Shown here one piece after another: positions 59,697 to 60,172 of a stretch of DNA of 64,000 bases (position 1 is the stretch's first letter; each line of letters starts with the position of its first letter). Below the pieces are notes generated by a model. The model did not search any database. It saw nothing but the letters and a program-made list of their open reading frames with translations, and was not told the DNA's origin. Both the position numbers and the translations under genes were made by a program. Source of the DNA: an uncultured Acidimicrobiales bacterium (GTDB lineage: Bacteria > Actinomycetota > Acidimicrobiia > Acidimicrobiales > SZUA-35). The stretch spans positions 62,001 through 126,000 of the forward strand of contig CALAJQ010000018.1 in NCBI GenBank assembly GCA_937922785.1, read 5' to 3'.

Positions 59697-59725
59697 AGCA
59701 TAGAAACCTAATACTGTTGGGTCCT

Positions 59726-60172
59726 ATGAATGAAAACGACCGGATGCAGAGTTTCTCTCTCCCGGATCAAGATGGCGTCATGGTTAGCTCCGACGCACTG
59801 CTTGCTCAGGGGCCACTAGTGGTATATTTCTACATAAAGGCAATGACATCTGGTTGAACGGTTGAAAGTAATCATTTCCGCGATTTGTCGGCTGAATTTG
59901 CCTCTCTGGGGGCATCAATCGTGGGAATAAGTGTCGATCAGGTTGATCGACAGAAGAAATTCGCTGACAAGAACGACCTTGGGTTCCCGCTTCTGAGCGA
60001 TCCCGACAAGAAGGTTGCATCCCAATTTGGGGTAAAGCGGCTGGCTTTTCTGCCGAATAAAAGAGCAACGTTTGTGATCGGTACTGATGGCACGGTGCTG
60101 TCAGAAATCACCAGCGAAACGAATATGAATGCACATGCTGACCAGGCATTAGAGGTGTTAAGGGCCCTCTAG
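59726..60172 (+). CDS. Bcp/PrxQ-type peroxiredoxin, candidate selenoprotein (in-frame TGA = Sec44)
   Basis: From the ATG at 59726 the frame encodes 43 residues (ending VVYFYIKAMTSG), then TGA at 59855-59857, then TVESNHFRDLSAEF and 90 further residues to a TAG at 60172; 148 residues in all, normal for Bcp. In Bcp proteins this segment reads FYPKAMTPGCTVE, so the TGA falls precisely on the peroxidatic cysteine. The downstream half keeps the family pattern (GISVDQ, FPLLSDPDKKVASQFGV, TFVIGTDGTV). The protein has no Cys at all and no resolving Cys at +5, so it would be a 1-Sec enzyme that reduces peroxides. No frameshift is present. Selenocysteine is the best explanation; a nonsense mutation is the alternative. 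No sel genes are in the window. Confidence 0.8.
59864..59891 (+). promoter_or_regulatory. Candidate bacterial SECIS region downstream of the TGA
   Basis: Two small stem-loops can be drawn just after the TGA: GAAA (59864-59867) with TTTC (59875-59878) around the loop GTAATCA, and CCG (59878-59880) with CGG (59889-59891) around the loop CGATTTGT, 20 nt after the TGA. Bacterial SECIS elements are short hairpins in the coding region with a G near the start of the loop. Both drawings are weak and exclude each other; proper folding is needed. Confidence 0.3.

Follow-up and report, generated by a model that had tools for sequence, protein, structure and literature searches.

A gene of the window, as we call the whole 64,000-nucleotide stretch of DNA from an uncultured Acidimicrobiales bacterium analyzed here, carries one in-frame TGA at the position of the catalytic cysteine of a Bcp/PrxQ-type peroxiredoxin. 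Since the genome encodes SelA, SelB, SelD and tRNA-Sec, and 63 related genes share this codon and its place, UGA44 is very likely read as selenocysteine (Sec), giving a predicted BcpB/PrxQ-type peroxidase with a single selenocysteine. We assign the gene with high confidence to a known kind of selenoprotein gene, of which it is a variant lacking both the resolving cysteine and the active-site proline.

The coordinates of the gene and of its features are collected in Table 1. Codon reading returned 43 sense codons before the TGA, 104 after it and zero Cys codons in the whole frame, and the translation around the TGA was FYIKAMTSG-U-TVESNHFRDL, in agreement with the first-pass annotation, which had described a frame intact on both sides of one TGA and a protein with no other Cys. 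The read-through product matched the AhpC-TSA family of Pfam (PF00578, 1.7e-30), and its best NCBIfam model was Bcp (NF006960, 4e-29), with a score of 101.6 bits that lies below the 140-bit cut-off. The TxxU site is present as TSGU, and in the longer PxxxTxxC site (IKAMTSGU) the Thr is kept, the Cys is replaced by UGA and the Pro by Ile. Arg113 probably corresponds to the catalytic arginine of peroxiredoxins. A TAATACT motif was noticed by eye at 59709-59715, ten bases 5' of the start codon, and suggests a nearly leaderless transcript.

Table 1. Features of the predicted Sec-type peroxiredoxin gene (positions in the window)
Feature	Position	Strand	Remarks
Sec-type BcpB/PrxQ peroxiredoxin gene (predicted)	59726..60172	+	148 residues, U44; start ATG 59726, stop TAG 60170-60172
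In-frame TGA, codon 44	59855..59857	+	peroxidatic Cys column in the orthologue alignment
Thr41 codon	59846..59848	+	T of TxxU; column nearly invariant
Ile37 codon	59834..59836	+	Pro of PxxxTxxC in 91/91 Cys orthologues
Asn49 codon, position +5	59870..59872	+	Cys in 91/91 Cys orthologues
Arg113 codon	60062..60064	+	invariant column (A1, A2)
C-terminal fragment	59885..60172	+	given by plain ORF search; 95 aa, TTG start 59885
Candidate SECIS	59852..59885	+	59852-59856 with 59881-59885, A-A bulge, 59859-59860 with 59879-59880
Candidate SECIS, possible upper stem	59864-59867 with 59875-59878	+	

An AlphaFold2 model built from 38 sequences showed a mean pLDDT of 89.1, the active-site stretch being its least certain part (residues 41-50, only 57). 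The best PDB match of the model was M. tuberculosis BcpB (5epf), with a TM score of 0.94 by query length and 52% identity, and the next matches were Bcp/PrxQ chains, with AhpE appearing from rank 13. According to the model, the protein is thus predicted to have an AhpC-TSA fold with Bcp/PrxQ proteins as its closest relatives. BcpB is the closest solved relative by sequence (6.4e-40) as well as by fold, but it has Cys at the site and retains both the Pro and the Cys five residues on. PrxU (NF040737), a Sec protein of Eubacterium acidaminophilum, is also of AhpC-TSA type but belongs to another subfamily; its model, with a cut-off of 270 bits, gave our protein a score of 24.3.

The machinery for Sec insertion was then evaluated in the genome of the window, a 4.9-Mb draft of 45 contigs that is 95.7% complete. 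The selA gene scored 384.6 bits in the profile search (cut-off 267.9), selB, located directly 3' of selA, 296.3 bits (cut-off 242.25), and selD 374.3 bits (cut-off 125), while a tRNA-Sec with anticodon TCA reached 66.7 bits against a gathering score of 47. As the tRNA-Sec family model also gave a weak signal in 14/14 control genomes, exceeding the gathering score in 5 of them, only the over-threshold match together with the ARAGORN call was counted. All four components that the first-pass annotation had proposed to look for in the same genome are therefore present. The selD gene (L046:9656-10696, minus strand) itself has an in-frame TGA, in the context HGAG-U-GCK; a possible 6-bp hairpin, ACUCGC/GUGAGU, was seen by eye 11-27 bases 3' of the T of this UGA. 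The genome also holds a second Sec-PrxQ gene but no third peroxiredoxin-like TGA match at E 1e-3.

Orthologues were collected by pooling genomes of the order with named contigs, the latter being the best 80 of 590 relatives, and the 164 loci were reduced to 155 by removing 9 with identical proteins. Among these matches listed, the catalytic column was occupied by TGA in 64, TGC in 85, TGT in 6 and any other codon in none, so that the homologue column holds only Cys and TGA, as the first-pass annotation had wanted checked (64 TGA, 91 Cys). That annotation was right to place the TGA at the catalytic Cys of a Bcp/PrxQ peroxiredoxin. A pseudogene or a sequencing error, in which the TGA would have arisen from a Cys codon by mutation or misreading, would be in line with the one base separating TGA from TGC or TGT and with the draft state of the genome (45 contigs). 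We regard this as extremely improbable, since 63 further non-identical orthologues share the TGA at this column and all of them continue 3' of it in an open frame of similar length, and since the +5 Cys and the Pro are also absent from the window's gene, a combination that a single error would not produce. Moreover, median pairwise dN/dS in the UGA genes was 0.33 before the UGA and 0.32 after it, a value obtained from the 375/2016 pairs within the dS limits, which are non-independent and include the window's own gene in none. In these pairs, the two flanks of the UGA are under comparable purifying selection.

The same data bear on a second explanation, in which translation ends at the UGA and a separate C-terminal protein begins internally at TTG 59885. 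The mechanical ORF list does contain this 95-aa piece, just as the first-pass annotation had expected of a standard gene caller, but the resulting product would be devoid of the TxxC site and of the first strands of the fold, and purifying selection acts on the codons 5' of the UGA as it does on those 3' of it; such a start therefore seems hardly credible.

Sec decoding was further evaluated from the co-occurrence with selA. In a set of 41 genomes, 14 had the TGA form and 10 the Cys form of the same subfamily, and selA was found in 14/14 of the former versus 4/10 of the latter; the 10 selA-less genomes of this set, one of them 55% complete, showed no TGA in any peroxiredoxin match. The order-wide set consisted of 397 genomes, 161 of which had an orthologue at <=1e-32. 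The 150 of these 161 that were listed comprised 53 TGA and 97 non-TGA genomes, with selA in 49/53 versus 40/97, respectively (Fisher p 2.7e-10, a value to be taken only as a guide because genomes share ancestry). The four TGA-form genomes with no selA match (G189, G323, G338 and G368) are 72-83% complete. UGA also serves as terminator in 22/64 TGA forms and 56/91 Cys forms, and its use as terminator in TGA-form genes means that it has not been reassigned wholesale. Insertion of another amino acid at the UGA (Trp, Cys or Arg) through a near-cognate or suppressor tRNA, with a selenium-free product, would keep the downstream frame open too. It is nevertheless very unlikely, as UGA alternates only with Cys codons, tracks selA and terminates 22 of the 64 TGA-form genes, and as a tRNA-Sec is encoded in the genome. 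Machinery, Cys/UGA column and selA co-occurrence thus uphold the original proposal, and UGA is very likely decoded as Sec here.

Among the named contigs (the best 80 of 590 relatives), 14 had the TGA form. The label was Acidimicrobiales, Acidimicrobiaceae or Acidimicrobiia for 9 of them, Candidatus Microthrix for 1, only Actinomycetota or Actinobacteria for 2, Deltaproteobacteria for 1 and Myxococcales for 1. The TGA forms on contigs labelled as Deltaproteobacteria and Myxococcales MAGs (L050, L087) may result from transfer or mis-binning. Separately, several weak peroxiredoxin-like matches with one TGA and open frames of 231-645 aa were observed (G001:C459, G002:C43, G005:C36, G007:C3, G011:C279, G012:C626, G017:C170 and G022:C3), and these are perhaps other thioredoxin-fold selenoproteins.

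The first-pass annotation had called the gene a candidate new selenoprotein, and this part did not hold. A 2005 Sargasso Sea paper (43 sequences, PMC1088965) and later a 2022 review (PMC9312934) list Sec peroxiredoxins that carry a TxxU site and are filed under COG1225 (Bcp); PMC1794560 counts 12 Sec peroxiredoxins and 5 events of Cys-to-Sec replacement, and names 12 selenoprotein families for the Actinobacteria in their circumscription of that time, PMC5029168 counts 91 Sec peroxiredoxins in 78 organisms, and PMC13188914 gives the Sec-Prx motif as PxxxTxxU. Compared with the COG1225 family (PMC1088965; PMC9312934; PMC13188914), the window's gene is likewise Bcp-type, with Sec as peroxidatic residue and the TxxU spacing, but the Pro of PxxxTxxU (PMC13188914) is Ile. 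Titles and the beginnings of abstracts mentioned no Sec-Bcp/PrxQ enzymes of Acidimicrobiales, and unnamed members may be contained in earlier tables. The Sec Bcp-type family has been known since 2005 and is hence not new; what looks new is the subfamily and its losses.

These losses concern the residues that accompany the catalytic one. Among the 155 orthologues listed, Cys at +5 was present in 91/91 Cys forms and 48/64 TGA forms, being lost in 16/64, and the active-site Pro of PxxxTxxC was present in 91/91 Cys forms and 41/64 TGA forms, being lost in 23/64. Both residues were gone in 14/64 TGA forms, the window's gene included (Ile37, Asn49), and 16/64 TGA forms had no Cys anywhere in the protein. 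In C. glutamicum PrxQ, a member of the PrxQ subfamily with the same site (Cys49), the resolving Cys54, five residues on, is needed for activity, and electrons come from thioredoxin only and not from the mycothiol system (PMC5811025). By comparison with this enzyme, position +5 would correspond to the resolving Cys site, which is occupied by Asn in the window's protein.

A similar condition was found in the second Sec-PrxQ gene of the same genome (L047, G000:C15:51440-51838, minus strand), which reads WWYPKASTPG-U-TLQGGGLRD, lacks Cys at +5 and has the same UGA context as the window's gene, GGT-TGA-ACG. To describe this line (WWYPKAxTPGU), 21 regions were used, 20 fetched as TGA matches plus L047, and one (L198) was dropped as its motif codon is TGC; in the 20 comparison regions, L211, L216, L223 and L225 had no motif match. 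TGA was present in the 20 genes examined and 19/20 were without Cys at +5, L191 being the only member to keep it. A Cys relative of the second line from a selA-less genome (L226) has Cys at +5. A tree of the 155 proteins, calculated by a quick method with the three trait columns masked, required a minimum of 6 changes between Sec and Cys, 6 gains or losses of the +5 Cys and 5 of the Pro. Of the 6 independent Sec/Cys pairs only 2 are on starred branches, a number that does not allow dependence to be tested, and the permission of resolving-Cys loss by Sec is therefore described as a pattern with no proven dependence, the tree being too weak. Judged from the orthologues compared here, the losses of the resolving Cys and of the Pro look new.

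Finally, we investigated the RNA around the UGA. Near the UGA, the bias in synonymous codon choice of the UGA genes greatly exceeded that of the Cys genes. Among the TGA genes (46 after deduplication), GGT preceded the UGA in 35 (10.5 expected), ACG followed it in 31 (13.9 expected) and CGT was found at +24 in 20 (4.6 expected); in 50 Cys genes there was no preference for GGT, ACC was favoured instead of ACG, and CGT occurred in 11 versus 5.7 expected. One helix enclosing the UGA explains the three preferences, for GGT, for ACG and for CGT or CGC at +24. It pairs GGUUG with YGAYY and CG with CG; the window's gene has CGAUU on the 3' arm, and all seven lower pairs form.

All fixed helices were scanned against synonymous-codon shuffles, positions being counted from the first base of the TGA. 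The helix -3..+1 with +26..+30 formed in 79% of 24 deduplicated TGA genes (null 6%) and in 63% of the 46 TGA genes (null 7%, or 24% if the Gly codon is fixed), compared with 12% of Cys genes (null 8%). With +4,+5 paired to +25,+24 in addition, all seven pairs formed in 46% of the 46 TGA genes (null 2%), in 2% of the 50 Cys genes (null 2%) and in 75% of 20 genes of the second Sec-PrxQ line (null 3%), a line unused in finding the first five pairs, while the other two were added after it had been seen. Slid controls paired far less than the candidate helix in 26 sequences. The scan alone is indecisive, because competing and mutually exclusive helices also score highly (the top z in the 24-gene scan belonged to -11..-8 with +16..+19, and the 46-gene scan returned -4..0 with +12..+16 among others) and the Cys control has a significant helix of its own (+12..+15 with +40..+43, 42% vs 16%).

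In 26 sequences no helix pair had changed on both sides and none showed covariation above column shuffles, and RNAalifold returned no strong consensus structure. Folding energies, evaluated against synonymous shuffles in 28 TGA and 76 Cys genes, did not differ for +3 to +42, +48 or +54, nor for the windows holding the helix (0..+39, -3..+33, -6..+36 and -3..+54). Only the interval from +36 to +57 differed (mean z -1.17 in TGA vs -0.31 in Cys genes, p 1.3e-4). This interval holds a codon-controlled hairpin, GAGUUC-NNN-GAACUC (+39..+44 with +48..+53), present in 61% of 46 TGA genes vs 2% of 50 Cys genes. It was set aside as SECIS because it is missing from the gene in the window. A home-made filter for bacterial SECIS hairpins was likewise dropped as a discriminator, since it did not separate the two sets: at -5 kcal/mol, 25/28 TGA genes and 39/40 Cys genes passed (40 of the 76 Cys genes being given), with the lower median energy in the Cys genes. 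The candidate element was also turned into a covariance model (R1), built from 26 sequences of both PrxQ lines. In the genome of the window this model recovered the two genes on which it had been trained and, at E 0.03, one further match, whose TGA sits in a frame with many stops. The model did not find selD in the same genome, although its UGA is also preceded by GGT; either selD therefore has a different element or the model was drawn too narrowly.

The UGA-enclosing helix is accordingly rated a candidate SECIS only, given the lack of covariation, of unusual folding energy and of a selD match. The codon bias might instead reflect termination context or pausing, with SelB recognising some other element. 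This reading, which we consider doubtful yet far from negligible, would accommodate the missing covariation and energy signals, the competing helices in the scan, and the selD gene, where GGT again precedes the UGA and the sequence following it was not found by the helix model; against it, a single helix accounts for GGT, ACG and CGY in two paralogous lines and shows no excess in the Cys set. If the candidate helix is the SECIS, the RNA element likely to direct SelB and Sec-tRNA to the UGA would enclose this codon (GGUUG/CGAUU, CG/CG).

In the proposed mechanism, Sec44, aided by Thr41 and Arg113, would reduce the peroxide and be converted to a selenenic acid. As the chain has no Cys, an external thiol would reduce this in turn; possible donors are thioredoxin and mycothiol, the latter acting with a mycoredoxin-like protein. 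M. tuberculosis AhpE resembles our protein in having one catalytic residue, no resolving Cys and a similar fold (1xxu, TM 0.82), but it is a Cys enzyme of another subfamily (23% identity); it is reportedly reduced by mycothiol/mycoredoxin-1. The best MshC-like gene scored 434.6 bits (cut-off 485.1, exceeded in 0/41 genomes) and the best mycoredoxin-like gene 84.2 bits (cut-off 89.5), and with both under their cut-offs mycothiol is a guess as the partner.

Taken together, we tentatively propose, at somewhat less than even confidence, that PrxQ enzymes with Sec as peroxidatic residue no longer depend on the otherwise fixed resolving Cys and Pro, that the two Acidimicrobiales lines may be one-selenocysteine peroxidases served by an external thiol, and that they may share a UGA-enclosing RNA element, GGUUGAACG ... 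CGYGAY, which would escape hairpin-based searches for bacterial SECIS. If the UGA is read as Sec, the Acidimicrobiales would have a set of selenium peroxidases, present in 53/150 listed orthologue-bearing genomes and truncated by ordinary gene calling. The 91 Cys forms, the 48 Sec forms with a second Cys and the 16 without it offer a natural comparison for what selenium buys over sulfur and, should the RNA element hold, it would provide a testable model of how SelB picks its UGA in Acidimicrobiales.
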